Virus record (IMG/VR): IMGVR_UViG_3300007537_000015 | Span: 1-25,683 of that record | Strand: one strand, 5' to 3' | Source: a virus | Length of the DNA: 25,683 nt | Shown: positions 4,890-25,683 of the stretch, in pieces | Layout of the letters: the number at the start of each line of letters is the position of its first letter | Numbering within the stretch: the first letter of the stretch is position 1 | Program-made: the position numbers and the translations under genes | Notes under the pieces: generated by a model | The model's database searches: none | What the model saw: only the letters and a program-made list of their open reading frames with translations | What the model was told of the DNA's origin: nothing

Positions 4890-6545
4890 ATGGCAAATAT
4901 AATAACACGTAAAATAAACGAGTTTAAAGCTAAACGCAATATAAAGAGCGCGAATAAAATAGTTAATGATATTGATTCTATAGTACGAAATACGATAAAT
5001 AGAAATAATATACAACAAAAGGATTTATCACCAAAGTTAGGATCCCGTGCTATTGTCGGTAAATTAAAGAAGAGATTTGCACCTAATAGAAACGTATCCC
5101 AAAGTGGAATACATATCAATAGGTTTAACATGTCTGATTTGTATACTTCTTATGTGGGTGAAAATCTGATGAAGTTTTCTGTTGATAAATACACAGAAGC
5201 AACTATTCGTAATGGTCAATTTGTTGATAGTAAAAATCCAACTGTAGTTAAATATCTTAACAAAAGAATATCTGAGTTTGATATTGTATCGGGCTCGAGT
5301 TTTATGGAATTCATTAGCGATTTCATGGTTTCTCTTATCTTATATGGCAATGTTCCCATAATAAAACACAGACAAGAAAATGTGTCATCCGGTAAAAGAT
5401 ATGTGAGATGGGACGGTAAAAAAATGAAACCTATTGCATCTCTATATGTTGAGGATTTTCGTAAATTAATAATTGGAGATGGACCTGGTAATAAAACGCG
5501 ATATATTAGAACACCAATGGATGTAGCTGATATAAATATGAACATGATTAATCCTTCGTTATTTAACATGAACAAAAGCGATATATTAGATGGTAGTCCT
5601 TCTATGTATAATCCAATCGCTGCTATATTAAGCGGTAGATGGGGACAGTTTTTCAGAAGAAAATCAAAACGAAATAGAGAGTATATAATCTATGATGATG
5701 ATACTGATATACAACATGTTAGATATCATCATACACCAGGTGAAAAAATTGCAATGCCTCCATTTTGGGCTACTTTGAACGATATAGATTCTCTACGTAG
5801 AATAGAAGAAAATATAGAACTACTGGTATATCAATATGGTCATCCTATTTTACACGCAAAAGTTGGCGACGATAAAAAACCTGGTTCTGACCCAGAAGTA
5901 GAAGATATAAGACTTAAAATAGAGAATATAGAAGGAAACGGTTTTATAGCCACTGATAATAGAGTCATGTTAGATATGATAGGTGCTGAAAACTCAACTT
6001 TAAGACTTGAAGCTTATCTTGAATACTTCTATCGTAGAGTCTTAACAGGATTATGGTTAAGTGAAGTAATGGTTGGCGTTGGTGATACTAGCAATAGATC
6101 TACATCAAACACGTTAGATAAACTGTCTCAAGAAAAAGTAATGGAGCTGCAAAATATATTTAGCGCAGCAATACAACCGATTCTAATAGAATTGCTTGCT
6201 GAAACCGGAGCAAAAATGGGATGGATTCTTAAACCTGAAAACATACCTAGTTTTAAATTCCATCCAGTTGACCTAGAAGGTTTAATTAAAAAACAATCAC
6301 ATATACTATCAATGTGGGAAGCTAATATGATAACTAATGATGAAATGAGAAGAGAGACAGGAAAAGAACCGTTCTCAAAGAACGACTTAAATAATACATA
6401 TACATATTTACATGCGATCCCATTAAAGAAGGCTGGTAAAGGTGAAATGGAAACTCCTTCTTCCAACAAGGCAAAACAAAATAAACTTACACCTAAAAAT
6501 CAACATGGAAAGAAGAACGGACCATCAGAATCACAAAATGCATAA
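4890..6545 (+). CDS. Portal protein
   Basis: A 551-aa protein that should form the dodecameric ring at the capsid vertex, through which DNA enters and leaves and to which the neck attaches. Features typical of the portal family are the region SFMEFISDFMVSLILYGNV (N-terminal core), the block VRYHHTPGEKIAMPPFWATL followed by a long helix starting NDIDSLRRIEENIELLVYQYG, and the later segment YRRVLTGLWLSEVMVGVGDT with a Ser/Thr-rich loop before another long helix. The last 40 residues are Lys/Asn/Gln-rich and disordered. The start at 4890 has no Shine-Dalgarno, only an A/T-rich leader. The 36-bp gap to the previous gene holds nothing I recognise. Confidence 0.85.
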   Translation: MANIITRKINEFKAKRNIKSANKIVNDIDSIVRNTINRNNIQQKDLSPKLGSRAIVGKLKKRFAPNRNVSQSGIHINRFNMSDLYTSYVGENLMKFSVDKYTEATIRNGQFVDSKNPTVVKYLNKRISEFDIVSGSSFMEFISDFMVSLILYGNVPIIKHRQENVSSGKRYVRWDGKKMKPIASLYVEDFRKLIIGDGPGNKTRYIRTPMDVADINMNMINPSLFNMNKSDILDGSPSMYNPIAAILSGRWGQFFRRKSKRNREYIIYDDDTDIQHVRYHHTPGEKIAMPPFWATLNDIDSLRRIEENIELLVYQYGHPILHAKVGDDKKPGSDPEVEDIRLKIENIEGNGFIATDNRVMLDMIGAENSTLRLEAYLEYFYRRVLTGLWLSEVMVGVGDTSNRSTSNTLDKLSQEKVMELQNIFSAAIQPILIELLAETGAKMGWILKPENIPSFKFHPVDLEGLIKKQSHILSMWEANMITNDEMRRETGKEPFSKNDLNNTYTYLHAIPLKKAGKGEMETPSSNKAKQNKLTPKNQHGKKNGPSESQNA

Positions 6546-6617: not shown

Positions 6618-8783
6618 ATGGACAAATTAACAAAATCCGTACTCAGAAATATGTCGGTTGATTCAGAGATAACTTTACACGATTCTATAAAACTAAATAG
6701 CATTAGCTATGTTTCAAACAAGAACAAGGTTAATAGTATTGATAAAGTAATTCGTCCCGAACAAAATGAGAGAACATTTGAAAATGCTGTTAAACGCATA
6801 AAAGCTAAAATGGGATCTAAACAAGCAATTGTTGCCAGGGCTGATGCAACTCACTATGATTTTGTAAATGGGAACTGGTTTTTTTATATCCTTGATTATA
6901 TAAAACAAAATGCAAAGACTTGGATATATTCTAAAAATGATACCAAGTGGGGTAAACCTGTACAAACAGATCATGTTCCATTTACAGATAGGACAATTGG
7001 GAGAATAGCAGCGGTAACACCCGTAATATATAAAAACCCAAGCGATGATTTATTTGTACCAAATGGACATATCGAATTAATATATTTTATTCCTGATAAA
7101 GATGCGATAGAAAAGATTATTGATGGCAGATACCATACGTTAAGTGTATCTGCTGCTTCAAAACCTGAGGAAGTCACATGTTCAATATGTGGTCTTCCTG
7201 TAAATAGTTTTGATTGTGATCATCAACGTGGCAAAACCTATGATGTCGAAGATGAAAAGAATCCTGATAAAACATACAAGCAATTATCCTACTGGAGATG
7301 GGGTAAACAGAGATATACTGAATTATCCTTTACACAAGTTCCTGCAGATGAAGAGGCTGCGAATAATCGTATAGAAACTATAAACATAAATGGCGATGAA
7401 TATGATATTGGAGAACAAAATAAAGATTCTAAAAATGTTATAAGTCAGAGTACAGTTTTCAGTGCTGATATCTCACAAGGTGGATCTTTAACAAATATAA
7501 AGAATATAGATAATATAAATGTAAACAATGATAAATTGTTACTAACAGACAGTATAATATCTGACACATTTAAAAACGAGGATAATAAAATGAATGATAA
7601 TTCTAAAAAAACAAATTCGACATCTGATACAATAATTAAAAATCAGGACAATGATCAACAGTCTAATATTGATTCTGATAAAAATAATAATATTTCTGAT
7701 TGCGGTTGCGATGACACTAATCAAGATTCCCAACACTCTGATGAGAACGAACAAAAAAATAATGTTTCTAATTCTGATAAAGTAAGAAATGAACAAAATA
7801 CACAAGACGCAGTTTTCTCATTAGTAATAGATATGCTCGAAAATAGAACTATTGATAATAACGATGCCGCAGAAATATTGATGGAAGAAACTGAAACTTA
7901 CATCAAACTAAAACAACGTTCTTCAACTAAGGATATGCTTAATATCATTAATCAAGAAGTATCCAACAGGGACGCTAAATTATCCACCAAACAAAGAAAG
8001 CGTTTACCTGATTCAGCCTTTTGTGGTCCGAATCGAAGTTTTCCTGTTCCCGATTGTGCACATGTTACAGCCGCCAGACGGTTAATTGGGCGATATAAAG
8101 GACCAGGAAGCAAAAAGAGGATTAAAGCTTGCATCGAACGTAAAGCAAAAGCACTAGGCTGCGACAAGGATAATAAAGACAATAAATCAAAAGACTACAA
8201 TAACAATTACACTAATAAGGAGGATTTTAAAGTGAAATACTCATTTGAAACCAAAGATGAGTTACTTGATAGTCCCGTAGTTCGAGAGGCAGTTGATAAA
8301 ATCCAAACCGAAGCGGAACAAAAAGTTGACTCATTAAAACAAAGAGAAGATAAATTTGTATCTATAGCTATTGATTCTATTATCGATATGTCTCTGAGAT
8401 TAAATAAACCACTGGTTAAAGATCTCAAAGACAAGAAAGATAATGAGTTTAAAGATGCCAAAGAATCTATTAGTAAAAAGCTAAAAGACCGAGGTATCGA
8501 TGCCCTTTCTTATATGATCAATGATCTAAAAGAAGAAATGGATGAAGTCAGTTCAACTGATAAAAATCAAGAAGCTGTAAAAAATGCTATCAATAATGAT
8601 GGCAGTGATACAAATAACAACACAGAACAAAATAACACGGACAACAAAAGTGACGATACAGAACAAAATCATCAAGATGAAAATGATGATGAAAAACCTG
8701 GCGAAGAAAACAATCAACAAAGTGCATCTGATAGTACAGATTCCAAAGATGATATGCCTTCTTTCGCTAAACCTGTAAGTTAA
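6618..8783 (+). CDS. Prohead protease fused to a scaffold-like C-terminal half
   Basis: This 721-aa protein should cleave head proteins during capsid maturation. Residues about 65-250 resemble SPO1-like prohead proteases: a candidate catalytic His in VQTDHVPF (H119), the core GHIELIYFIPD, and a candidate catalytic Ser in YHTLSVSA (S176/S178). CSICG and CDHQRGK follow and look like a small metal-binding knuckle. Residues about 300-430 are a low-complexity Asn/Asp/Gln linker. Residues about 464-514 hold a conserved-looking basic module (DSAFCGPNRSFPV, DCAHVTAARRLIGRYKG, CIERKAKALGC). The rest is helical then acidic and Gln/Asn-rich, like a scaffold. The start ATG 6618 follows AGGA and a promoter-like sequence. 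An internal start at 8232 is listed separately. The protease call is fairly firm; the scaffold role is inferred from composition and position. Confidence 0.78.
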   Translation: MDKLTKSVLRNMSVDSEITLHDSIKLNSISYVSNKNKVNSIDKVIRPEQNERTFENAVKRIKAKMGSKQAIVARADATHYDFVNGNWFFYILDYIKQNAKTWIYSKNDTKWGKPVQTDHVPFTDRTIGRIAAVTPVIYKNPSDDLFVPNGHIELIYFIPDKDAIEKIIDGRYHTLSVSAASKPEEVTCSICGLPVNSFDCDHQRGKTYDVEDEKNPDKTYKQLSYWRWGKQRYTELSFTQVPADEEAANNRIETININGDEYDIGEQNKDSKNVISQSTVFSADISQGGSLTNIKNIDNINVNNDKLLLTDSIISDTFKNEDNKMNDNSKKTNSTSDTIIKNQDNDQQSNIDSDKNNNISDCGCDDTNQDSQHSDENEQKNNVSNSDKVRNEQNTQDAVFSLVIDMLENRTIDNNDAAEILMEETETYIKLKQRSSTKDMLNIINQEVSNRDAKLSTKQRKRLPDSAFCGPNRSFPVPDCAHVTAARRLIGRYKGPGSKKRIKACIERKAKALGCDKDNKDNKSKDYNNNYTNKEDFKVKYSFETKDELLDSPVVREAVDKIQTEAEQKVDSLKQREDKFVSIAIDSIIDMSLRLNKPLVKDLKDKKDNEFKDAKESISKKLKDRGIDALSYMINDLKEEMDEVSSTDKNQEAVKNAINNDGSDTNNNTEQNNTDNKSDDTEQNHQDENDDEKPGEENNQQSASDSTDSKDDMPSFAKPVS
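8232..8783 (+). CDS. Probable separate scaffold protein from an internal in-frame start
   Basis: Inside the protease-scaffold gene a perfect AAGGAGG (8217-8223) lies 8 nt upstream of an in-frame GTG (8232-8234), codon 539 of the long frame. Initiation there would make a 183-aa product starting (M)KYSFETKDELL, mostly charged coiled coil and ending in an acidic disordered tail. This resembles lambda Nu3 inside gene C, where scaffold is made from an internal start in the protease gene. The site is seen in the sequence and the function is inferred. A weaker internal site exists at ATG 7590 after GAGG. Confidence 0.55.
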   Translation: MKYSFETKDELLDSPVVREAVDKIQTEAEQKVDSLKQREDKFVSIAIDSIIDMSLRLNKPLVKDLKDKKDNEFKDAKESISKKLKDRGIDALSYMINDLKEEMDEVSSTDKNQEAVKNAINNDGSDTNNNTEQNNTDNKSDDTEQNHQDENDDEKPGEENNQQSASDSTDSKDDMPSFAKPVS

Positions 8784-8815: not shown

Positions 8816-9991
8816 ATGGACGAAAATAAATTCAATTTAGTATTTAGTGGTAGTTCTAATGGCAGAATTAACACTAAAATGAAACAAATTCCAGCGAAAT
8901 TCCTGTATTCTGATATCAGTTGGGGGTTTGAATGTTCTCCAGGCGATAGACCTGCTGAACCCATTATGCCCAACAGGTATGCACCAATCGTAAAAGAAAT
9001 AAGAAACAAAAGCCTTTTTGAAAAGGGCATTGTGATCCCTTATGGTACGATTATATCTGCTTTGCCTGTTATGAATAAAGAATATTATAGCAGTGGAGCT
9101 GGTCCTGATAATCTTGGTGCTGCCAGTGGTGATACATCATCTGGTAATCTAGCATTAGGTATTGGGTACGATGGAAGTTTAATTCAGGACGATCTCAATG
9201 ATATGATTGATGGTTATGATAGAATTAAGCTCATCGCTACAATCGCAAATGGTGGTGAAGATGCTACAGATCTTTACACATCTAAAGATACAGACAGAAA
9301 TCGAGTTGGTCTAGATGGTTCTCTGGTAGAAGCTGGAGATGCCTTTACAAGAGGTAAAAATATACCTTTTGGTTTTGTAACAGAAGATATATATCTATTC
9401 GAATCAGGAAATCGTATAAACTTCAACGAAGTAAGTTACAATAAATTCAGTACTTTTGCTACTGATTACTTTGTTGAAATGCCATATGTCGTTAACGATA
9501 GTTACAATGTTGGCGATGGCGGTAACTACGATGGAGATGATTCTGCATCTGATGTATATAAAGCTATCAAAAATCTGGGTATGCCATTTCTTTGGGCTGA
9601 AAGTGCAAGCGACCTTATAAATGGTGCATTTGTACAACCTGACATGAATGGCAAATGGAGAATGCAGTATAGTGGTAAGGCTAGTGCTGTTTCTGGAAAC
9701 AAAACAGCCCAGACAACTGGTAAGCTTATTTCATTTACTAACAAGTATCCGAAAGATCTTGAAAACTTTGTGGAAACTTGGAACAATGCAGACGCCAGTA
9801 ACTATGGTAAAAACTATAGTGGTGCTACTTCTACAGGTGGTACTGCTACATACGGTTTACCGTATAAATTATTTGTTATGATATGTACAATACTTTCTGC
9901 TGATAGCACTGAAATTTCCTATAGTAATATAAAGGATTTTCTAAACAGTGGCGAAGTGGGCATTGCCCGAATTAACGTACATACGTCATAA
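8816..9991 (+). CDS. Unknown virion protein between scaffold and major capsid protein
   Basis: A 391-aa protein with a good ribosome binding site (GGAGGA, 8803-8808) before ATG 8816. It is acidic and rich in Gly, Ser, Asn and Asp, with no membrane segment, which suits a beta-rich surface protein. Residues about 90-125 form a Gly/Ser-rich loop (SSGAGPDNLGAASGDTSSGN). It sits 32 bp after the scaffold and 19 bp before the major capsid gene, so a capsid accessory or decoration role is plausible. I do not recognise the family. Confidence 0.7.
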   Translation: MDENKFNLVFSGSSNGRINTKMKQIPAKFLYSDISWGFECSPGDRPAEPIMPNRYAPIVKEIRNKSLFEKGIVIPYGTIISALPVMNKEYYSSGAGPDNLGAASGDTSSGNLALGIGYDGSLIQDDLNDMIDGYDRIKLIATIANGGEDATDLYTSKDTDRNRVGLDGSLVEAGDAFTRGKNIPFGFVTEDIYLFESGNRINFNEVSYNKFSTFATDYFVEMPYVVNDSYNVGDGGNYDGDDSASDVYKAIKNLGMPFLWAESASDLINGAFVQPDMNGKWRMQYSGKASAVSGNKTAQTTGKLISFTNKYPKDLENFVETWNNADASNYGKNYSGATSTGGTATYGLPYKLFVMICTILSADSTEISYSNIKDFLNSGEVGIARINVHTS

Positions 9992-10010: not shown

Positions 10011-11315
10011 ATGAATCCTAAAAATAACGAACAAACACAAGCTAAACAGCAAAAACAAGTACATTTTACACGGGCTTGGGATGCTATCCTTCACAATGAC
10101 GGGTATATGACATCTGAGAACGGAGATGTTTATCAAGTACAACTCTCCGACATGTTAAAAGAGGAAGATTTACAGCCTTTAACTACTCAGGCCATCACGC
10201 ATGTAATGCAAGATGAAATCGAACCAATGTCAGTAGTTTATGATAATTTCTTTACTGAGCTTAAAATGACTACTACTGAACAATCTATAATTGTTCACAA
10301 TATTGGTCCTCTTACTGTTGAACCACTTGGTAGATATGGTACAGAATATCCTGAAACCAATCTAGCAATTGATCAAGACGGCCAAGAAATCAATCTGAGA
10401 TTACAGCGATATGGTATAGAACTTCGTATGCACGAAGATGCTGTATCTAGAAACCAGATTCCTTTAGTATCTTTATGGATGAGACGAGCTCGTAATGCGT
10501 TCGCTCGAAATAGAGAAAAACTTGGATTGGTTGAACTGTTAAAAACTGGTATTGTTACTTTCGATAATAACAGTCCCGGTGATTATTCTCATGATGTTGA
10601 ATCTTTGACTGGTCGAGATATTAGTGGTGCTTTCAATGGTACTATGACTCTCAATGATCTAATGAAAATGTATACAAAAGCTCTGCTTGATGGTTTCACT
10701 CTTGATACCATTTTAATGCATCCTTTTGCATGGCAAACTTTCATGACTGATCCCGAAATGAAGGAAATTGTTGTTAATAACAACACCATTACTTCATATC
10801 GCCCGCCAAATGGTTCTGGTGCGACTGGTAGATTTAGTGCAATGGAATTCAAAAGAAATCTTGGTCTGCCCTGGTCTAAAGGCGCAGGTAATGATGATTT
10901 GGATCCCACTTTAGCTAAATTGGGCCAAAATCCATACAGTTTAAATAACTCAGTATTGGGTGCATCGTATAATATTAAACCAAAATACTGGCCAACACCA
11001 TTGAACATTGTTGTTTCACCTCATGTTCCATTACGAACAGTTAATGGATCCACTGTAAGTGATATAATTTTTGCTCAAAGTAACGAAGCCGGTCTTGTAT
11101 TACGTGAAGGTGAACCTCTTGTTCGAAGCTTTAATGTTGAAGAAAAAGAGGCTATCGTAACACGTATGCGTGAAGGTTTAGCATTCGGCACAATGAATTT
11201 AGGTAAAGGTGTCAGAGTAGCCAAAAACGTTGTTGTAGGAAGGAACTATGTATTCCAAAATACAAACTCTGTTTCACTTGGTTCAATTGACACATCAGCT
11301 GATCGTATGCCTTAA
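10011..11315 (+). CDS. Major capsid protein
   Basis: This 434-aa protein should build the icosahedral shell with the HK97 fold. It follows protease and scaffold, has a strong AAGGAGG (9995-10001) and resembles SPO1-like capsid proteins: a Gln-rich N-terminus that could be trimmed by the protease, helical delta-domain-like DMLKEEDLQPLTTQAITHV, the region GPLTVEPLGRYGTEYPETN, and long spine helices around residues 145-185 and 215-230. The C-terminal part (IVVSPHVPLRT, then EEKEAIVTRMREGLAFG) fits the axial domain. It is followed by a perfect palindrome rather than directly by the next gene, as expected for a highly expressed gene. Confidence 0.85.
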   Translation: MNPKNNEQTQAKQQKQVHFTRAWDAILHNDGYMTSENGDVYQVQLSDMLKEEDLQPLTTQAITHVMQDEIEPMSVVYDNFFTELKMTTTEQSIIVHNIGPLTVEPLGRYGTEYPETNLAIDQDGQEINLRLQRYGIELRMHEDAVSRNQIPLVSLWMRRARNAFARNREKLGLVELLKTGIVTFDNNSPGDYSHDVESLTGRDISGAFNGTMTLNDLMKMYTKALLDGFTLDTILMHPFAWQTFMTDPEMKEIVVNNNTITSYRPPNGSGATGRFSAMEFKRNLGLPWSKGAGNDDLDPTLAKLGQNPYSLNNSVLGASYNIKPKYWPTPLNIVVSPHVPLRTVNGSTVSDIIFAQSNEAGLVLREGEPLVRSFNVEEKEAIVTRMREGLAFGTMNLGKGVRVAKNVVVGRNYVFQNTNSVSLGSIDTSADRMP

Positions 11316-17468: not shown

Positions 17469-20400
17469 GAGAGTATATTTAATAGTAACTAGTTGACTAA
17501 TTCCTTAATTCATGTTTCAATATAAGTAACTTAATTAAGGAGATATTGTGTCAACTAAACGAAAAACATGGTCGGCAGAAGATACTAGATATCTGAAAGC
17601 CAACTATTGCTCTTTGACAATAAAAGAAGTTGCTGAGAATCTAAATAGAACATATCAGCGACTTGTAAATATGTAAATAAGGGGCCTTTTAAAACTCCGT
17701 GAACCTCTAGACAAATGAGGATGTCGGTTTATAACCGGCTTACGGCGAATGCAATGACGCCGTGCCAAGCTTGGAAGGAAACTTCCTTGAAGGTGTAGAG
17801 ACTATCAATGAGACTAAGTCATAAAATGATACGTCGATAAAATTTGTTAACAGCGCGGGGCACTATTTATATATCAACGTCTTTCTCTAGACATTTGAGA
17901 TATATAAGTCAATAACATAGTCCAAATTAAAGCCAATTTACACATTGATTGACCGAGTGTGTATGTATAAGTAATTATACATAGAGAACGCAACTTAAAT
18001 CGGTGAACCCCAAGGGGAATACCGAGGGTAAGACTCAAGAAATTGAGATCCCGTAGAGACTTCGGAGTTTAACTCCGTTAATGTTAATAATCTGGGCCGA
18101 CTGGCCGTAAGGATAACATAAATGGGAAAATATAATATAAACTGTAGTCCAGATATAAATAATCCAAAAATGTCATGGGCATTTGGATTTACAGCAGCAG
18201 ATGGTTCATTAGTTAAAACTAATAGAACACGTGATCCTAATATTATATCTTATACATTAAATGCAAAAGACGCAGATGTGCTATATAAGATAAAACATAT
18301 ATTTCAGTTAGATCACCCTGTAAAGTTTTATACTAATAATCAAGGAAAAGATACCGTATATTTGAGATTTACTGACAATAGATATGAACATCTATTGTTC
18401 TCTAAAGATCAATTAAATATCAAAAATGCTTTTCCTCAATCATTTATCAACAACAACACAAGACATTATCTTCGTGGACTCATAGATGGAGATGGATGTT
18501 TACATCATAGAAAACGTGGTGGATTTATGATTGTGTTTATAAATGAGAATGAGGAGATAGTTAAGAATTTCTCCTACTGTGTTGCTAAATATTTAGGTCT
18601 AAGTTTTAAAATACCAAAACTAGTGGAAAAAGATCATATATGGAGAATTCAATATGAATCTAGATCAGCTAGGATATTAGCTTGGTGGTTATATCATGGT
18701 GAAATTGATGAAATGTCTCTCCAACGAAAAAGAGATTCATATCAATCCATGGTTAATCCATTAAATAATAACCTAGATCAGTTTTTTGACGCATTTTTTG
18801 GTAAAGAACTTAGATACATACCTAAGAGAAAAAACAATGGACTTATTGTACCAATACCAATGAATAACCATGCAAATTCTTTAAATATATGTAAAGGAAT
18901 TCAAAATGTTTGTTCAGCGTACAACGTAAAGTCTATACCTTTACCAGTAAATAAAGGAAATGTAAAATATTATATTCCCTATTTCCCAAAAGAATATGTT
19001 TCTAGCATTAAAATGTTGCGCCCCTTCAAATATTTACTTGAAGGGTGAAGATATAGTCCAATATGTCGGTTATTTTAGCATGGCCGAAGGAAAACTCCTT
19101 TAAATCAGGGAACCTAATATTAGGAATCCTGAGATAACTTCATGTTATGAAGTATTGCAGAGACTTTACCGATAATTCGCTGAGTTATTGGTAAGATAAT
19201 ATAAATGACACACAGTGTTTATAAATTATAATACTAGGAGCAGCAAATGAAAACAATAAGTAAGGAATTAATAGGAACCTCAATTGGAACATTATTGGGA
19301 GATTCCTGGTTAGAAAAATATGCATTAAGCTGTGAACATAGTAAACAAGATAGTGAATATATACATTGGAAAAAAGATATATTCGATCAACTATCTGGTA
19401 GAAAATGTGCTCTATATAATAGAGTTGGTAGAACAAAAACTATTAATAATATAGAAACAACATCATGTGATTCTATTCAACTAAAACTACTTTATAGAGA
19501 TTTAGTTAAACTACTAGTTCCACTTATGTATAATGCGGATAATAAAAAGACTATAACCAACAAGGCATTAAATTTAATAACTCCATTTGGTTTTATTATG
19601 TGGTATTTTGATGACGGGAGTTTTAACTACTCTCAAATATCAAGTTCTATATATACTAATGGGTTTACAATTTATGAACATAAACTATTGAAGAAATGGT
19701 TGTTAGATAAATATAATATTAATGCAAATATTGTTAATAAATCAAATAGTAAGTGTCTATACTTTAAAAGGAAAGACACTCTTAAACTATTAGCATTCAT
19801 AGAATCTAATTGTAAGAACATACCTATTTGTATGAGACGTAAAATTCCTATAGAATGGAAAAATATACATTACAATAGTAATTACAAATGGAACAGAATA
19901 TCATACAAATTATCTGATTATGATGCTAAAAAGAAGATCAAGGAAAATCTTCTTAATTATCATAAAAATGTTGACAATACTAATATTGATAAAAATACAT
20001 ATTTCAATATTATTGGTTATAAAAACTGGAATGATTCATATAGTATTTCCAAAGCAATTAGGAGAGTATTTGGATCAATAAACGCTGCATTAATATATTC
20101 TAACTTGCCTACAAATATTTGCTGAAGATATAGTCCAAAATGCATGCAAATCCACGTAGTTTTAGTCGTAAACAATCTGCGACCTAATGAAGTAATTCAT
20201 TAGTAAAAATGTTACTTGTACGGTGAAACCTAAATCTGATTAACCATTTTTGGCCAAAGGACAAGGCAATACCGTGGCTTACAATACAGTAAGTCGTACA
20301 GACTTGACAGGAGAATATATGGCAAATCAACATTCATGTGGTTGGTCAGTAAGTGAAGATAAAGTAATTAAAATGTATTACGGTAGTAAAACATATGCCG

Positions 20401-23400
20401 ATATATCTAAATTACTTAAGAATAGAAGCAAACAGGCTGTTAAAAACAGGTGTAAGGTTCTTGGATTACAAAGTTCAAAGAAACAATGGACATCCGAGGA
20501 ACTTAATATTCTTAAAAATAGCTATGCTAACAATCCACATATTTGTGAACTTCTTCCCAGGTGGAACTGGGAATCCATAAAAAGACAAGCCAATAATATT
20601 GGTTTAAAAGTTAAATATGGAACATATAAGTTCAACCATATGTTTTTCAACAAATTAACGGAGAAATCTGCATACATTCTAGGATTTATAGCAGCAGACG
20701 GTTATCTCAATATTAATGCTAATCGAATAGAAATCGGGCTCCAAAATAAAGATAGGAACCATTTGATTAGTATTGCCAATGCAATGGAATATAATGGTCC
20801 AATATATGAGAAACCTAAAAGTAAATCAGTTCGATTACAAATTGCTAGTACTAAGTTATTAGAAGACGTAATCGAATTATTAGGGGTTAGAAACAACAAA
20901 TCTCTAACTTTAAAATCTGCTGATATCCCAAATATTCTTATGCCACATTTTATACGTGGCTATTTTGATGGAGATGGACATATAAGTGGATCTTCAAAAA
21001 GGATAGTATTTTTGGGAACAGAAGAATTCTTAGAATGGATAGATGTATATATACATAAAACTCTCAATACGAGTAAGAGAAAATGTCCTAAAAAGAAAGG
21101 ACATGAAAATGTATATTATATCGGATATTATGGCACTGATTACAGTAAAGTTTGTAATCTAATATATAATGGTGCGACAATATATCTTAATAGAAAGTAT
21201 CAACGATATGTTAATTTGTGTCGGAGCGTTAAACGCTAAATGTAACACATCCTGTTCCGGGATGAAGATATAGTCGATTCCGTTAGAAATAACGGTAGTC
21301 AATTTTGACGTAAATATAAATGGGAAAGCGTAATTATACTGCGCCTATATGTAAAAATACATATAGAAAATTCGGCTCTGTCGGAGGAGTCAATATATGA
21401 GAAAATTAAGTCCAAGAAATCAACATCTCTTACCTAAGAGTGCTACTGAACAAGAATGGAAGGAATTACTAATATCTTTAATGAGAGAATGTGCTGAAAA
21501 GAATGATAAACTCTCTTATAATTTGTTTAGAGATTTTATTCCAAATAGAAATCTTGCAAGATCATGTGAAAGAATATTCGGATCTTGGAATGAAGCACTT
21601 AGAGCTGCTGGATTTCCAGTAAAGAAGAGATGGAGAATCAATGATACTTACATTTTAAATAGCATTAAAAAATGCTATAATGAAAATGGATATGTTACTT
21701 ATAGCATGTTAGAGGATACTAAAAAATGTGGCGTATCTGTAACAACAATCGAACGTCACTTTGGATCTTTTAACAATGCTTTAAAAAGAGCTAATGTACC
21801 AGTACATAGAAGTGCCGGTTATTTTGCTCACCCAAGAGTAGCAAAAGATGGTCATAAATGTGATTCAATTGCAGAAAGTATTATTGATAATTGGTTATAT
21901 GAACATAAAGTAAAACACTATATACATTATGAGTATCCTCATGATGATATGTTCAATAACGGGTTTAATAATCACATGCAATGTGATTTTTATTTACCTG
22001 ATAATAATGTATACATAGAATATTTTGGCATGTCAAGCATAAATGCGAAGACTGCTAAATATAGAGCAATAAGAAAAAGATATAGGACAACTATTACTAG
22101 AAAAATGGCACTATGTAATAAACTTAATATTAGCTTAATATGTATATATCATAATGACCTAAGAAACCTGGATAAATGCTTAAAACAATTGAAAACTCCG
22201 AGCATATAAATATTAATTTATATGTGTAACGACTCAGATTTAATTATCTGGACACATCATGTAGCATGATGTGTAAAAACCGAAAATCCTGTAAAAAGGA
22301 TTATGGTATAGTCTATACACTTGGTGACAAGTGAATATATGGGAATCGCCGGTTCAATGATTACTACAATTTTTGATCGTTCTTCTTTGTATCAACTGAT
22401 ACATAGTAAGAATGATGAAGATTATATGTACTATGCGAAAGAAGGCGAAGGCTATCAGTTAGCTAATACTAATAATGACCCTTGGGCTTGGTCCAAGAGA
22501 GTTCAAAATATGGCAACTGATGGAACTTATGATACCGATATGCGAAAGGCCGAGTATTCAGATCAAATTATGCCGCCAAACTCACTAGAGTTGACAGCGT
22601 AGATAACTGATCTGCATAGTTGACATCTTATTACTTCTTATGTTATAATATGCATAAGGATTAAACAATGAATGATGTTAGAAATAAAGCAGACAAATGG
22701 TTCTTTGAGAAACTAAATGATTATGTTAGAACAAATGGCGTTCTACCATCTCGCATACAATTTGCAGACTCTCTCCAATTGACTATCGCAATGTTCGATA
22801 GATTCATGAAGAAGAGATTCGGCAATTGGAATGAGTTTATTATTAAGTCAGGATATAAACCACCTAAGAGGTTTATAGTAAATGATAAAGATAAACAAGA
22901 GATGATTGAGCAATTTGTTCAGTTCGAATCCGAATATGGATACGAACCTCAGTTACGTTCTTTCCGGGCAAAAGATGGCTATAAATGGACCAAACAAATA
23001 ATACTTAAAACGTTTGGTACATGGAATGGTTATCGTAAAGCATGCGGAAAAACAGAATGTAATAGAGGGTCCATGTCTATATTTAGAGATGATAAAAAGC
23101 TCTTATCCGAGTTGAAAGAAACTTGTTTGAGACTAGACACTACAGATTCCAATGTTGTATGTGATCATCTCCTTGGCAGTAAATATTTATATCAATTAAG
23201 ATTTGGTAACTGGCAAGCAGCAATAACTAAATGTGGTTTAAAACATATGTTATGCAAAACAGTAGGAAATCGAACAAAGGCAGAAGATGGACACATGTGT
23301 GATTCAATGGGTGAAGCTATTGTTGATAATTGGCTTTATCATAATAATATAGATCACGATGTACATGTTTCCTATCCTGGAAAAAATAGATGTACTTGCG

Positions 23401-25683
23401 ATTTTGTAGCAAATGGTTACTGGATAGAGTTTACTGAAGCTAAACTGAACAGTAGCATAACTACGTCATACACTGATAGGTTAAATCGTAAGATAAAGAT
23501 AGCAAAACATTTTCATCTAAACATAGTCATTATAGATAGACGAGAACACATTGACATAGTTCTACGCGATCTATTCTTAAAAAAGGACGGCCACCAGGAA
23601 GAGATTCCTGGTTGCAAATTGAGTGAATTCAAGGAAGGCTAAGTTATTATAAATAATATGCTAACCCTGAGCTAAGTCAATCTTGGGTTAAAAGAGATTG
23701 AAAAGTGCAAAGACTAGATGGTGAGCCCAACAATAATCCATCCACGAGCGCCCAACATCCTACTAGGATGATGAGATAGTCTGATCTCATGGGAAATCAT
23801 GAGAAACAAAGGATAAAGAGCCTTTGTGTTAACACAATGTTTAATATAACGCTAATTGCTCAGAATGAAATTCGTTCCACCATAGCGTAAGTTATGGTTG
23901 CAAACGTGGCTTACATCGGTGAAACCCTACCAGGAACATTGGAGGGCAATACCGAGGGGTTAAGGAAGTAATTCCGAAAGCCCTGTAGAGACTTAAGGAG
24001 TAACCGTGTATAAATATAATGGATATTTTAATAATATCGACAGTATGTATTTACACAAGATTTATTCTTCCATTATTTGAGAGGGTTAATTGATGGTGAT
24101 GGTTCAATTGGTATATATAGAGGACAATCTTCTATATCAATACGAGGAACCAAAGCTCTCTTATACTCCATTAAATCGAAAATCAAAGATATAATGGATA
24201 TAAATGCATCATGTTATCAAGATAATTATACTTATAAATTAACTTGGTATCATGGTTGTATTGATCTTGGAGAACGAATCTACAGAGAAAAAACATTATA
24301 CATGCAACGCAAATATAATAAATTTCTCTCTGTTCGGTGCTACCTAGAATCTATCGAATCCTATCGCGGTAGATTAACATGCCACGCCCTTAAACAAGCA
24401 GACCTAAAAAATAGGTACATAGATAAAATAAAGGATTTCCATTCTAAAAATGGAAGAATCCCAACTGCAAATGAGTTCAGACATATGGGCTCAAATGCTA
24501 CTGTGTATAAATATTTCGGTTCATTTAATAATCTTATAAGATTAGCCGGATATATTCCAAGATCTGCAACTAAGGTGAAGATATAGTCCAGGCACGTAGT
24601 AATACGTGAATCACTAGAATATGGCCTTGCCGCTTGGCGCGCACTATTGGGAGTCGAGATCAAAATTAAGGTCTCATCACATAGTAATATGTGAATAAAT
24701 AATATAGCTATATGCTGGAACAACTTAAAATAATCATAGGAGGTAACAAATATGAATGAGTTAATCAGCAGCGAAGGGCATCTCCAGAAGGAGGGTAAAC
24801 CCCGCTCAGAGACTAAATGCTATAGAACCTATTCAGTTAACACTGATTTCTTTAAAATATGGTCACATGAAATGGCTTATGTTTTGGGATTTACAGCAAC
24901 GGATGGTTATGTAAGAGTAAACAATAATGCTATTACTAAACCAAATGGTTCAATTATTAAACAGAAAGGTATATACCAGATAACATGGTCTGTTACTGAT
25001 CTTGAAGTTTTAGAATATATAAAGAAAACAACCAAGGCAGAACATCCTATTAAGGAAAGACCGATATCTTACTATAAAAAGTATAAATATAAGAATGTTA
25101 AGAAACAATGGTATATAACTATAAACAGTAAAGAAATGGTGAACGATTTAGCATTATTAGGAATACTTCCTGCTAAATCTAAAACCATAGTTCTACCGGA
25201 TAATTATCCGAATGAATTCATGTCTTCTTATATAAGAGGAATAATGGATGGAGACGGATGTTGGTCTTTAGATAAAGCACATAAGAAACAACATCCAAGA
25301 GCATTTATTACATCCGGCAGTAAAGAATACTTAACTCAGATAGGAAATTATCTGAAAAAACAAATTGGTATAATACCTAAAATTTATACCAATAAACGTG
25401 GTATTCATAATCTATCATATGGTGGTAGAGAAGTTGCTGCTCTTGCTTATTATATAATGCAGGATAACGGATTCATGATAGAACGTAAGTTTAAGAAAAT
25501 GATTGAAACTATAAAAGGATATAAACAAGCAAAATGCAATGTATGTGGAAAACCTTTTATACATGTTGCTGGATTACAAAAGAAATGTAAACAGTGTAAG
25601 AAGAAACTGAAGGTTTAAGATATAGTCCAATCTATTCAGTAATGGATAGTTAATACAAATGCTTAAACGAAGGTGGTGGGTTA
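17358..25683 (+). CDS. Tail tube protein gene split into nine exons by eight group I introns (3' end outside window)
   Basis: The protein should form the inner tail tube that carries DNA. The first 37 codons match the SPO1-like tube family (SSFSG.DI, GISYSITREKA) after a strong AGGAGG, but the frame then stops. Joining 17358-17468, 17933-17945, 19066-19070, 20143-20169, 21323-21331, 22342-22600, about 23859-23866, about 24617-24660 and 25662 onward restores REKAPIYTFGHANPRSFSR, then GKRGIAGSMITTIFDRSSL, PPNSLELTA..., NEYGLAAWRALLGVEIL and NEGGGL, the conserved family order. Most junctions show U at the 5' site, G at the 3' site and guide pairing. The junctions around exon 7 are uncertain by a few bases; the best canonical choice adds one Ser (LTASQNEYG). 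Splicing is inferred, not shown. Confidence 0.85.
17469..17932 (+). ncRNA. Group I intron A in tail tube gene
   Basis: About 464 nt. It starts after U17468 and ends with G17932. The guide GGCCTTTT (17683-17690) pairs with exon 1 over 8 bp. P7 strands are GTAGAGACTA (17794-17803) and CATAGTCC (17916-17923). The P1 loop is unusually long (about 214 nt) because it holds the remnant endonuclease ORF at 17548-17676. A second guide-to-3'-exon pairing covers only about 2 bp. Confidence 0.8.
17548..17676 (+). pseudogene. Remnant of a homing endonuclease: SANT/Myb-like DNA-binding domain only
   Basis: GTG 17548 after TTAAGGAG encodes 42 aa reading KRKTWSAEDTRYLKANYCS then EVAENLNRTYQRL, a helix-turn-helix of the SANT/Myb type. 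The endonuclease of intron D carries the same kind of domain at its N-terminus (GWSVSEDKVIKMYYG). No nuclease motif follows before TAA. It looks like the leftover start of a degraded homing endonuclease, though a small intact DNA-binding protein cannot be excluded. Confidence 0.6.
17933..17945 (+). other. Tail tube exon 2, 13-nt micro-exon
   Basis: CCAATTTACACAT encodes P-I-Y-T plus the first base of a split Phe codon, exactly the residues expected after REKA. It follows an intron-terminal G and ends in U. ACACAT, with the T before it, pairs with GTGTGTA (17957-17963) of intron B, including the terminal U-G. Confidence 0.85.
17946..19065 (+). ncRNA. Group I intron B in tail tube gene
   Basis: About 1120 nt. 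Guide GTGTGTA (17957-17963) pairs with exon 2; ACCGA (17952-17956) just upstream pairs perfectly with the 5-nt exon 3 TCGGT as P10. P4-P6 lie around 17998-18030 (CGGTGAACCCC...GGGGAATACCG). P7 strands are GTAGAGACTT (18053-18062) and AAGATATAGTCC (19048-19059). The endonuclease gene sits between the P7 strands, in the P8 region. Ends with G19065. Confidence 0.88.
18122..19048 (+). CDS. LAGLIDADG homing endonuclease in intron B
   Basis: A 308-aa monomeric LAGLIDADG enzyme, expected to cut intronless tail tube alleles and spread intron B. Two catalytic helices are visible: MSWAFGFTAADGS (about 17-29) and HYLRGLIDGDGCL (about 115-127), each ending in the catalytic Asp. The distance between them (about 98 residues) suits a single-chain two-domain enzyme. 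ATG 18122 follows AAGGA (18111-18115). The stop TGA runs directly into the P7 3' strand, so the gene fills the intron loop up to the ribozyme core. Confidence 0.88.
   Translation: MGKYNINCSPDINNPKMSWAFGFTAADGSLVKTNRTRDPNIISYTLNAKDADVLYKIKHIFQLDHPVKFYTNNQGKDTVYLRFTDNRYEHLLFSKDQLNIKNAFPQSFINNNTRHYLRGLIDGDGCLHHRKRGGFMIVFINENEEIVKNFSYCVAKYLGLSFKIPKLVEKDHIWRIQYESRSARILAWWLYHGEIDEMSLQRKRDSYQSMVNPLNNNLDQFFDAFFGKELRYIPKRKNNGLIVPIPMNNHANSLNICKGIQNVCSAYNVKSIPLPVNKGNVKYYIPYFPKEYVSSIKMLRPFKYLLEG
19066..19070 (+). other. Tail tube exon 3, 5-nt micro-exon
   Basis: TCGGT completes the split Phe codon and encodes Gly (PIYT-F-G). All five bases pair with ACCGA of intron B (P10) and all five pair with GCCGA (19083-19087) of intron C (P1), so the exon is bounded by pairing evidence on both sides and the frame closes exactly. 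Confidence 0.85.
19205..19232 (+). promoter_or_regulatory. Candidate promoter for the intron C endonuclease
   Basis: ATGACA (19205-19210) and a perfect TATAAT (19227-19232) are 16 bp apart, just before the AGGAG and ATG 19247 of the endonuclease. Such sequences arise by chance in AT-rich DNA, so support is moderate. Confidence 0.35.
19247..20125 (+). CDS. LAGLIDADG homing endonuclease with C-terminal endonuclease-associated repeat, intron C
   Basis: A 292-aa protein. The two catalytic helices are IGTSIGTLLGDSWLEK (about 9-24) and FGFIMWYFDDGSFN (about 115-128), of the type seen in organelle-like LAGLIDADG enzymes and unlike the motifs in the enzymes of introns B, D and H. Residues about 245-285 (NIIGYKNWNDSYSISKAIRR, FGSINAALIYSNL) match the homing-endonuclease-associated repeat that also occurs in the enzymes of introns E, F and G, so this looks like a fusion. 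ATG 19247 follows AGGAG (19236-19240). The stop TGA overlaps the P7 3' strand. Confidence 0.85.
   Translation: MKTISKELIGTSIGTLLGDSWLEKYALSCEHSKQDSEYIHWKKDIFDQLSGRKCALYNRVGRTKTINNIETTSCDSIQLKLLYRDLVKLLVPLMYNADNKKTITNKALNLITPFGFIMWYFDDGSFNYSQISSSIYTNGFTIYEHKLLKKWLLDKYNINANIVNKSNSKCLYFKRKDTLKLLAFIESNCKNIPICMRRKIPIEWKNIHYNSNYKWNRISYKLSDYDAKKKIKENLLNYHKNVDNTNIDKNTYFNIIGYKNWNDSYSISKAIRRVFGSINAALIYSNLPTNIC
20143..20169 (+). other. Tail tube exon 4 (27 nt, nine codons)
   Basis: Encodes HANPRSFSR, the family's conserved ...PRSFSR block. The first five bases pair with GCATG of intron C (P10) and the last five, GTCGT, pair with GCGAC (20179-20183) of intron D with a terminal U-G. Confidence 0.9.
20170..21322 (+). 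ncRNA. Group I intron D in tail tube gene
   Basis: About 1153 nt. Guide GCGAC (20179-20183); TCT (20176-20178) pairs with GGA at the start of exon 5. P4-P6 lie around 20219-20275 (CGGTGAAACC...GGCAATACCG). P7 strands are GTACAGACTT (20296-20305) and AAGATATAGTCG (21265-21276). A P9 hairpin (CCGTTA..TAACGG) follows. Ends with G21322. Confidence 0.88.
20319..21239 (+). CDS. LAGLIDADG homing endonuclease with N-terminal SANT/Myb-like DNA-binding domains, intron D
   Basis: From ATG 20319 (after CAGGAG, 20308-20313) a 306-aa protein. Residues about 8-100 carry two SANT/Myb-like helix-turn-helix units (GWSVSEDKVIKMYYG...KNRCKVLGL and KKQWTSEELNILKNSYANN). The nuclease part has helices EKSAYILGFIAADGYLN (about 113-129) and MPHFIRGYFDGDGHISG (about 208-224). 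The open frame extends upstream to 20250, but that stretch is ribozyme core without a ribosome binding site, so I reject the longer start. The N-terminal domain probably adds DNA-binding specificity. Confidence 0.88.
   Translation: MANQHSCGWSVSEDKVIKMYYGSKTYADISKLLKNRSKQAVKNRCKVLGLQSSKKQWTSEELNILKNSYANNPHICELLPRWNWESIKRQANNIGLKVKYGTYKFNHMFFNKLTEKSAYILGFIAADGYLNINANRIEIGLQNKDRNHLISIANAMEYNGPIYEKPKSKSVRLQIASTKLLEDVIELLGVRNNKSLTLKSADIPNILMPHFIRGYFDGDGHISGSSKRIVFLGTEEFLEWIDVYIHKTLNTSKRKCPKKKGHENVYYIGYYGTDYSKVCNLIYNGATIYLNRKYQRYVNLCRSVKR
21323..21331 (+). other. Tail tube exon 5, 9-nt micro-exon
   Basis: GGAAAGCGT encodes G-K-R, filling the family motif SFSR-GKR-GIAGS. It follows an intron-terminal G, ends in U, and its last four bases pair with GCGC (21341-21344) of intron E. 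Confidence 0.87.
21332..22341 (+). ncRNA. Group I intron E in tail tube gene
   Basis: About 1010 nt. Guide GCGC (21341-21344) pairs with exon 5 with a terminal U-G; a P2-like hairpin CTATATGT/ATACATATAG follows at 21345-21366. A P7 pairing GACT (about 22232-22235) with the 3' strand GGTATAGTCT (22305-22314) is plausible. The endonuclease gene lies upstream of P7, unlike introns B, C and D, so this intron is probably of a different lineage. Ends with G22341 before GGAATC. Confidence 0.75.
21397..22209 (+). CDS. Homing endonuclease of the repeat plus EDxHD/PD-(D/E)XK-like type, intron E
   Basis: A 270-aa protein, ATG 21397 after GGAGGAG (21382-21388). Residues about 17-70 and 75-122 are two homing-endonuclease-associated repeats, each ending in the signature FGSWNEALRAAGF or FGSFNNALKRANV. 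The nuclease part reads KDGHKCDSIAESIIDNWLYE, then Y-H-YEYP, CDFYLPDNNVYIEYFG and a Lys-rich helix, which fits an E...D...E-x-K-like core such as I-Bth0305I (EDxHD) enzymes. No LAGLIDADG, HNH or GIY-YIG motif is present. The family is inferred from pattern only. Confidence 0.72.
   Translation: MRKLSPRNQHLLPKSATEQEWKELLISLMRECAEKNDKLSYNLFRDFIPNRNLARSCERIFGSWNEALRAAGFPVKKRWRINDTYILNSIKKCYNENGYVTYSMLEDTKKCGVSVTTIERHFGSFNNALKRANVPVHRSAGYFAHPRVAKDGHKCDSIAESIIDNWLYEHKVKHYIHYEYPHDDMFNNGFNNHMQCDFYLPDNNVYIEYFGMSSINAKTAKYRAIRKRYRTTITRKMALCNKLNISLICIYHNDLRNLDKCLKQLKTPSI
22342..22600 (+). CDS. Tail tube exon 6 (largest exon, about 86 codons)
   Basis: Encodes GIAGSMITTIFDRSSLYQLI through DQIMPPNSLELTA, matching the middle of the tube family. 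The frame is also open upstream to a TTG at 22321, but that part is intron E. The 3' end is uncertain: U22600 fits the group I rule, but I find no clean guide pairing. TAG at 22600-22602 ends the unspliced frame. Confidence 0.85.
22620..22649 (+). promoter_or_regulatory. Consensus sigma-70/sigma-A type promoter inside intron F
   Basis: Perfect TTGACA (22620-22625) and perfect TATAAT (22644-22649) with an 18-bp spacer, ending 18 bp before the ATG of the intron F endonuclease. This is the best promoter match I see in the window. Confidence 0.65.
22668..23642 (+). CDS. Homing endonuclease of the repeat plus EDxHD/PD-(D/E)XK-like type, intron F
   Basis: A 324-aa protein, ATG 22668 after AAGGA (22655-22659) and a consensus promoter. 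Three endonuclease-associated repeats with signatures FGNWNEFIIKSGY, FGTWNGYRKACGK and FGNWQAAITKCGL cover about residues 10-200. The nuclease part (EDGHMCDSMGEAIVDNWLYH, D-H-D-VHVSYP, CTCDFVANGYWIEFTEA, then a Lys-rich helix) is clearly related to the intron E enzyme (shared DGH.CDS..E.I.DNWLY). It is 54 aa longer because of the extra repeat. Confidence 0.72.
   Translation: MNDVRNKADKWFFEKLNDYVRTNGVLPSRIQFADSLQLTIAMFDRFMKKRFGNWNEFIIKSGYKPPKRFIVNDKDKQEMIEQFVQFESEYGYEPQLRSFRAKDGYKWTKQIILKTFGTWNGYRKACGKTECNRGSMSIFRDDKKLLSELKETCLRLDTTDSNVVCDHLLGSKYLYQLRFGNWQAAITKCGLKHMLCKTVGNRTKAEDGHMCDSMGEAIVDNWLYHNNIDHDVHVSYPGKNRCTCDFVANGYWIEFTEAKLNSSITTSYTDRLNRKIKIAKHFHLNIVIIDRREHIDIVLRDLFLKKDGHQEEIPGCKLSEFKEG
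23859..23866 (+). other. Tail tube exon 7, about 8-nt micro-exon (boundaries uncertain)
   Basis: CTCAGAAT lies after a possible intron-terminal G (23858). Its GAAT pairs with GTTC (23874-23877) with a terminal U-G, and it supplies Q-N before the conserved E-Y-G. With U22600 it would read LTA-S-QN-EYG, one residue more than the family norm. A junction within ACAG/GCG instead would give LTA-QN-EYG. Confidence 0.55.
23867..24616 (+). ncRNA. Group I intron G in tail tube gene (ends approximate)
   Basis: About 750 nt. Guide GTTC (23874-23877) pairs with exon 7 and ATTC (23870-23873) pairs with GAAT at the start of exon 8. P4-P6 lie around 23915-23960 (CGGTGAAACCC...GGCAATACCG). P7 strands are GTAGAGACTTA (23985-23995) and AAGATATAGTCC (24578-24589). 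A P9 hairpin CACGTA/TACGTG follows. The pairing implies an A as last intron base. Moving the junction by one gives the usual terminal G (24617) but a G as last exon base. The mRNA is the same either way. Confidence 0.75.
24006..24586 (+). pseudogene. Truncated LAGLIDADG homing endonuclease in intron G
   Basis: A good start region (AAGGAG, then GTG 24006) opens VYKYNGYFNNIDSMYLHKIY but stops at TGA after about 25 codons. In another frame, from about 24035, the sequence reads DLFFHYLRGLIDGDGSIGIY and runs to TAG 24584-24586. The second catalytic helix is intact, but the first LAGLIDADG helix is absent and about 100 residues are missing compared with intron B. A C-terminal endonuclease-associated repeat remains (IKDFHSKNGRIP, YFGSFNNLIRLAGY). 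The simplest reading is an internal deletion with frameshift. A short product from TTG 24077 (169 aa) could exist but would lack half the active site. Confidence 0.75.
24617..24660 (+). CDS. Tail tube exon 8 (about 44 nt)
   Basis: Encodes EYGLAAWRALLGVE plus two bases of an Ile codon, matching the family's NEYG...GVEI. GAGAT at its end pairs perfectly with GTCTC (24671-24675) of intron H with a terminal U-G. Confidence 0.88.
24661..25661 (+). ncRNA. Group I intron H in tail tube gene
   Basis: About 1001 nt, with the cleanest splice-site evidence in the window. Guide GTCTC (24671-24675) pairs with exon 8; TTAAG (24666-24670) pairs with CTTAA at the start of exon 9 as a 5-bp P10. P7 strands are CTCAGAGACTA (24805-24815) and AAGATATAGTCC (25617-25628). 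Ends with G25661. Confidence 0.92.
24752..25618 (+). CDS. LAGLIDADG homing endonuclease with C-terminal zinc-ribbon-like end, intron H
   Basis: A 288-aa protein, ATG 24752 after AGGAGG (24738-24743). Catalytic helices are HEMAYVLGFTATDGYVR (about 38-54) and MSSYIRGIMDGDGCWSLD (about 158-175). The end CNVCGKPF...CKQCKKK has two CxxC pairs and probably binds zinc. Residues 1-23 are encoded by the ribozyme core including the P7 5' strand, so gene and ribozyme overlap. No other ATG with a binding site lies before the first catalytic helix. The stop TAA overlaps the P7 3' strand. Confidence 0.87.
   Translation: MNELISSEGHLQKEGKPRSETKCYRTYSVNTDFFKIWSHEMAYVLGFTATDGYVRVNNNAITKPNGSIIKQKGIYQITWSVTDLEVLEYIKKTTKAEHPIKERPISYYKKYKYKNVKKQWYITINSKEMVNDLALLGILPAKSKTIVLPDNYPNEFMSSYIRGIMDGDGCWSLDKAHKKQHPRAFITSGSKEYLTQIGNYLKKQIGIIPKIYTNKRGIHNLSYGGREVAALAYYIMQDNGFMIERKFKKMIETIKGYKQAKCNVCGKPFIHVAGLQKKCKQCKKKLKV
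25662..25683 (+). CDS. Tail tube exon 9 (start only, cut by window end)
   Basis: Completes the split Ile codon and reads L-N-E-G-G-G-L, continuing the family's GVEILNEG block. The frame is open to the last base, so further exons or introns may follow outside the window. Confidence 0.87.

Follow-up and report, generated by a model that had tools for sequence, protein, structure and literature searches.

Does the open reading frame (ORF) between the portal and major capsid genes of a virus known from IMG/VR record IMGVR_UViG_3300007537_000015 encode one head-assembly protein or two? The stretch that we analysed (positions 1 to 25,683 of that record, i.e. 25,683 nucleotides; hereafter the window) carries at 6618-8783, on the plus strand, a single ORF of 721 aa, with the portal gene upstream and a 391-aa gene followed by the major capsid gene downstream, the position in which nested protease/scaffold genes are expected. 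A sequence-only reading had proposed that its C-terminal part is also made on its own, as a scaffold protein, from an internal start. Our work makes it highly probable that the ORF gives two in-frame products, a prohead protease and a scaffold that is encoded within the protease gene and translated on its own. The nested design as such is already known; what we add is the breadth of its conservation.

The putative internal start has its own ribosome-binding site and lies where the N-terminal part, a head protease, gives way to the scaffold-like C-terminal one. The Shine-Dalgarno (SD) stretch TAAGGAGG is followed by a spacer of 8 nt (8224-8231) and by a GTG codon at 8232-8234 that is in frame with the first start (6618 + 3 x 538) and has 183 codons from there to the stop; the earlier placing of AAGGAGG 8 nt ahead of an in-frame GTG at codon 539 of 721 was exact on re-reading. 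Among the 245 in-frame internal ATG, GTG and TTG codons of the 18 window ORFs, only those at 5754 and 8232 have an SD match of at least 6 nt at a distance of 4-12 nt, and 8232 alone has a match of at least 7 nt. The predicted duplex with the 16S tail at 8232 (-12.2) is the lowest of the 245, the next being -8.4. It is far stronger than the duplex at the first start of the same ORF (-4.2), and that at the start of the capsid gene is -11.7. Moreover, the ORF encodes 38 valines, and only the one at 8232 uses GTG. When codons were shuffled synonymously so that the protein was kept, an SD match of at least 6 nt with an in-frame start within ±6 codons of the site arose in 0.39% of 20,000 shuffles.

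This site is conserved in close relatives. With the portal, capsid and protease as queries we obtained six distinct contigs (L008, L009, L010, L011, L012 and L015); L001 (= L007, L013), 99.9% identical to the window over 11,266 bases, was not counted as a relative, and L014 and L016-L021, the same contigs as relatives already counted, were dropped. All six have one fused ORF of 689-754 aa that is 33-47% identical to the window ORF and, within the retrieved stretches, the same gene order. In all seven genes, an aligned in-frame ATG (four genes) or GTG (three genes) stands behind an SD of 6-8 nt and opens a tail of 183-230 aa. The residues encoded by the SD vary (NKED in three genes, then TQED, KEED, QEVA and KENQ), and since these residues differ while the SD stays, the comparison points to selection on the DNA. 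Where the internal start is a valine codon it is GTG in three of three cases, a codon that is otherwise rare in these genes (1/38, 1/39 and 2/45 valine codons). Compared with the first start, the internal site has the stronger duplex in six of the seven genes; in L015 the two are equal. Shuffles recreated the site in 0.13% of cases for L009, 1.3% for L012 and 7.6% for L010, and the product of all seven shuffle probabilities is 2.5e-11, a value that assumes independence and refers to sites seen beforehand.

The same holds for a much wider family. A search with an alignment of proteins from Bacillus phage KLEB27-3, Moorella phage MTATph1, the locus L022 and Acinetobacter phage ME3 gave 220 loci, of which the best 80 were used; because long matches rank higher, split genes could be missed. 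Together with the four query genes these were 84 genes; L067, L079 and L089 were dropped for open 3' ends, and the remainder was reduced by shared 6-mers to 52 representatives, 51 of them usable. L037 was left out, an upstream ORF having been picked instead of the protease gene (likewise in the two further contigs L038 and L039), and L052 was retained though cut at its 5' end. We took as linker the 25-105 residues past the last protease motif, an interval set after an earlier look at the sites, and ignored starts before codon 60 in the best-site count because two genes have a strong start at codons 26-27, probably the real beginning of the gene. All 51 genes are single ORFs that extend well beyond the last protease motif. 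The linker contains the best in-frame internal start of 44 of them; in 200 synonymous shuffles this number averaged 23.9 and never exceeded 34. In 39 genes this best site has a duplex of -8 or better (shuffles: mean 14.3, maximum 22); the genes being related, these counts are non-independent events. Of the 192 in-frame starts in the linker, 48 reach this strength (41 of the 51 genes); for the +1 frame of the linker the figure is 10 of 323 starts, spread over 10 genes, and for the +2 frame none of 16. In a stretch of the protease, 2 of 89 in-frame starts are this strong, as are 8 of 421 and 3 of 144 starts out of frame. In the true protease gene of L037, taken outside the shuffle test, the best internal site falls in the linker as well (-11.4) and opens a tail of 203 aa. 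A scan of viral sequences with the MTATph1 protein gave no matches, and a genome scan with it gave one locus, L022, whose best internal site is again in the linker (-9.3). Comparison thus lends good support to the proposal of a separate scaffold from an internal start, with the site kept in six of six close relatives and the best in-frame site falling in the linker in 44 of 51 wider ones.

Both parts of the ORF can be related to head assembly. By hhalign, the N-terminal region is matched to the KLEB27-3/MTATph1/L022/ME3 alignment at 99.7%, and the KLEB27-3 gene is annotated as a prohead protease. H119, S176 and E235 are invariant in all seven genes of the window clade; they may form an HK97-like triad. 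A match to the protease family phrog_18299 was found in three of the seven clade members (best E 3.5e-6), the window member not being among them, and a weak match to the XkdF protease in one (E 0.079). The window ORF itself hit no Pfam or NCBIfam family above the cut-offs; its matches to DUF7033 (Pfam) and in NCBIfam were below these and were taken as chance. An AlphaFold2 model of the full-length protein had a mean predicted local distance difference test (pLDDT) of 47.8 and was poor in its protease part. Modelled as a single chain, the 183-aa part is predicted to form helices at residues 8-12, 15-56, 60-66, 71-85 and 88-122 (block pLDDT 79-92 over residues 1-110) and, from residue 123 on, a disordered tail; the mean pLDDT of this model is 69.8. 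With 18 D/E and 5 K/R, its final 68 residues have a net charge of -13, which bears out the acidic tail seen in the sequence-only reading, with the predicted helices before it. A profile of this part from the window group matched the same part of 19 wider relatives (19 aligned of 22 listed coordinates) at 93.9% and E 1.5e-7 over 74 columns. Mean column conservation is 0.44 for the block that ends at the start codon (residues 521-540) and 0.64 for the next one (541-560).

Several observations weigh against a nested scaffold gene. In 7 of the 51 wider-family genes (L003, i.e. MTATph1, and L065, L034, L023, L035, L100 and L102) the best site is outside the linker, and the linker site of ME3 is weak (-5.4). 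In L015 the aligned internal site (-8.8) is surpassed by another at 5571 (-12.0). The residues alone make the site fairly likely in L008, L015 and L011 (29%, 14% and 13% of shuffles), and the ±6-codon interval, like that of the linker, was set after the sites had been seen. As to the function of the short product, fold searches of the 183-aa model in viral and PDB libraries gave no matches at E<=0.001, and the scaffold role is suggested by position, predicted shape and relatives. The shuffle frequencies of L008, L015 and L011, and the 7.6% of L010, would suit the idea that codon and residue composition, such as NKED in the linker, produces the SD-like stretch incidentally and that nothing is initiated there. 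We give this idea hardly any credence: shuffles recreate the site in only 0.39% of cases for the window, 0.13% for L009 and 1.3% for L012, the excess of strong sites is specific to the frame and to the linker, and the linker residues vary among the relatives.

It is also conceivable that the 721-aa fusion alone is usefully translated, that the internal SD is little used, and that cleavage by the protease frees the scaffold. In coliphage P2, the scaffold is freed when the protease cuts a fusion. A paper on phage 0105phi7-2 suggests, by analogy to P2, that a C-terminal scaffold peptide is split off its gp5 by the protease of that protein (PMC10219371), and the seven wider-family genes that have their best site elsewhere would fit such a route. 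Yet the strong in-frame SD is conserved far beyond what the protein sequence needs, which an unused site would not explain, and we regard cleavage alone as quite improbable; internal start and cleavage can coexist. If, on the other hand, the short product is made, it might serve as something other than an assembly scaffold, for instance as an internal head protein or a protease regulator. For this speaks, besides the empty fold searches, that no scaffold family reached threshold for the window part in Pfam, PHROG or NCBIfam; profile searches of PDB sequences likewise gave at best E 0.6-0.7. The predicted helical rod with its acidic tail argues for a scaffold, as does the sub-threshold match of the L022 counterpart to Phage_scaffold (E 6.4e-5, 23.4 bits with a cut-off of 35), a score that coiled-coil families attain alike. 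Furthermore, no separate scaffold candidate was noticed between the portal and capsid genes, the sole other gene there being the family-less 391-aa gene. We hold a different role of the short product to be very unlikely.

For the nested protease/scaffold gene, we suggest that weak initiation at 6618 would yield few molecules of the 721-aa prohead protease, and that strong independent initiation at GTG 8232 would provide the 183-aa scaffold in excess. The C-terminal part of the protease would itself be scaffold and probably carries the protease into the prohead, since a full-length protein that includes the scaffold part can co-assemble. The helical core of the scaffold and the capsid protein would assemble together, and the protease may later degrade the scaffold and thus make room for the entry of DNA. 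The steps after translation are drawn by analogy from lambda and Mu.

Which phages share this arrangement? The lambda C protease and Nu3 scaffold share one frame, the likeness to the window that the sequence-only reading had named; the C protease belongs to a family unrelated to that of the window, and we liken the two by description. According to a paper on lambda, an initiator is formed by C, Nu3 and the portal protein B, and Nu3 may be degraded by C (PMC3224144). A paper on a Mu-like phage places the scaffold start of Mu in frame inside the protease gene, and for the Mu-like phage PaMx73 it proposes a Val start 9 nt after ACGAGGA in the protease/scaffold gene (PMC4378225); these cases, too, are likened to the window by description. 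The SPO1-like layout, in contrast, could not be upheld: portal and capsid each match four phage records at E<=1e-3, namely MTATph1, KLEB27-3 and ME3 (twice), and none is SPO1, which the collection includes, so that an SPO1-like origin is not supported. ME3 is a relative of the window in portal, capsid and protease, and the annotations of its terminase, portal and head protein name phage 0305phi8-36 as a homologue. For this Bacillus thuringiensis phage, a 2007 comparison labels the gene "pr./scaf. - protease with nested scaffold gene" (PMC2147016), as we propose for the window; the link runs through this description and the ME3 annotation. The gp014 of vB_BauM_KLEB27-3 (OM634661), annotated as a prohead protease, is homologous to the window protease and likewise has an in-frame GTG (codon 256) 8 nt after AGGAGG, with a duplex of -12.2 and a 213-aa tail, in a portal-protease-capsid order with one gene between. 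Unlike the window protein, gp014 has 468 aa and no middle domain, and the record lists a single gene. In the open-licence literature we found no study that surveys the spread of the internal start, and no papers on MTATph1 or KLEB27-3 by name.

The features of the locus are listed in the table. The middle domain between protease and scaffold matches phrog_16160 over residues 453-489 of the window ORF (E 9e-11), a family matched by six of the seven clade members. In Tunturiibacter phage Tunturi_1 the FCGPNRSFPVPDCAH domain is a separate 67-aa gene (L004:4998-5201) that aligns to residues 453-509 with 45.6% identity; in L008 and L012 the motif is without some of the cysteines or neighbouring residues. 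A second in-frame internal start is present in the window (ATG 7590, codon 325, behind GAGG, duplex -5.9) and, aligned with it, in L008 (ATG 3692 behind TAAGGA, -6.0); the L015 ATG 5571 mentioned above stands behind AGGAGG and lies further downstream. That the gene is doubly nested, the second start also giving a middle-domain-plus-scaffold protein so that one ORF encodes three head-assembly proteins, is an unlikely extension. For the 391-aa gene, Pfam, PHROG and NCBIfam gave no family match.

Table. Features at and around the protease/scaffold locus of the window, with the basis of each assignment.
Feature	Position	Strand	Basis
Probable prohead protease-scaffold ORF, full-length 721-aa product	6618..8783	+	ORF list; protease region matches KLEB27-3/MTATph1/L022/ME3 profile (hhalign 99.7%)
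Protease region (residues ~67-248), which includes the invariant H119, S176, E235 and a CxxC...CxH insert	6816..7361	+	Aligned range; invariant columns
Middle domain with the FCGPNRSFPVPDCAH motif, lying between the protease and scaffold parts (residues 453-509)	7974..8144	+	phrog_16160; Tunturi_1 gene
SD TAAGGAGG of the internal start	8216..8223	+	Read in sequence; AAGGAGG = 8217-8223
Putative nested scaffold gene, GTG start, 183 aa	8232..8783	+	Site, relatives, shuffles, AlphaFold2 model, profile match
Predicted helical core of scaffold, residues 8-122	8253..8597	+	AlphaFold2 model
Predicted disordered acidic tail, scaffold residues 123-183	8598..8780	+	pLDDT <50 for 123-176 and 180-183; charge count
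Portal gene, upstream neighbour	4890..6545	+	phrog_9232 portal, E 9.4e-26
391-aa gene, between scaffold and capsid gene	8816..9991	+	Present in all six close relatives
Major capsid gene, downstream neighbour	10011..11315	+	Phage_capsid_4, E 7.4e-7; phrog_3922 major head protein, E 1.1e-6

Elsewhere in the window, at 18122-25618, lie six homing-endonuclease-like ORFs, four of the LAGLIDADG type (18122, 19247, 20250 and 24752) and two with HNH-associated repeats (21397 and 22668). The probable tail sheath gene is followed by a group I intron (23566-23803), and the next gene or genes look as if cut by several introns. The terminase ORFs of three relatives (L010:2110-5220, L011:953-4066 and L009:1094-5443; 1036, 1037 and 1449 aa) carry large inserts at shared places, the one in L010 with an intein splicing domain and LAGLIDADG; the 634-aa window terminase has no insert there. 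L022, on a contig labelled as a Gammaproteobacteria metagenome-assembled genome, has a portal-like ORF of 980 aa (L022:2039-4981) with an insert that by eye looks like an intein; this ORF gave no Pfam matches at E<=0.001.

The exact start codons are now named and open to testing. Records that list one prohead protease for such phages, as for KLEB27-3, may miss a scaffold gene. Judging by our comparison, the nested protease/scaffold design has been retained by many members of a phage group that is diverse and for the most part uncultivated.
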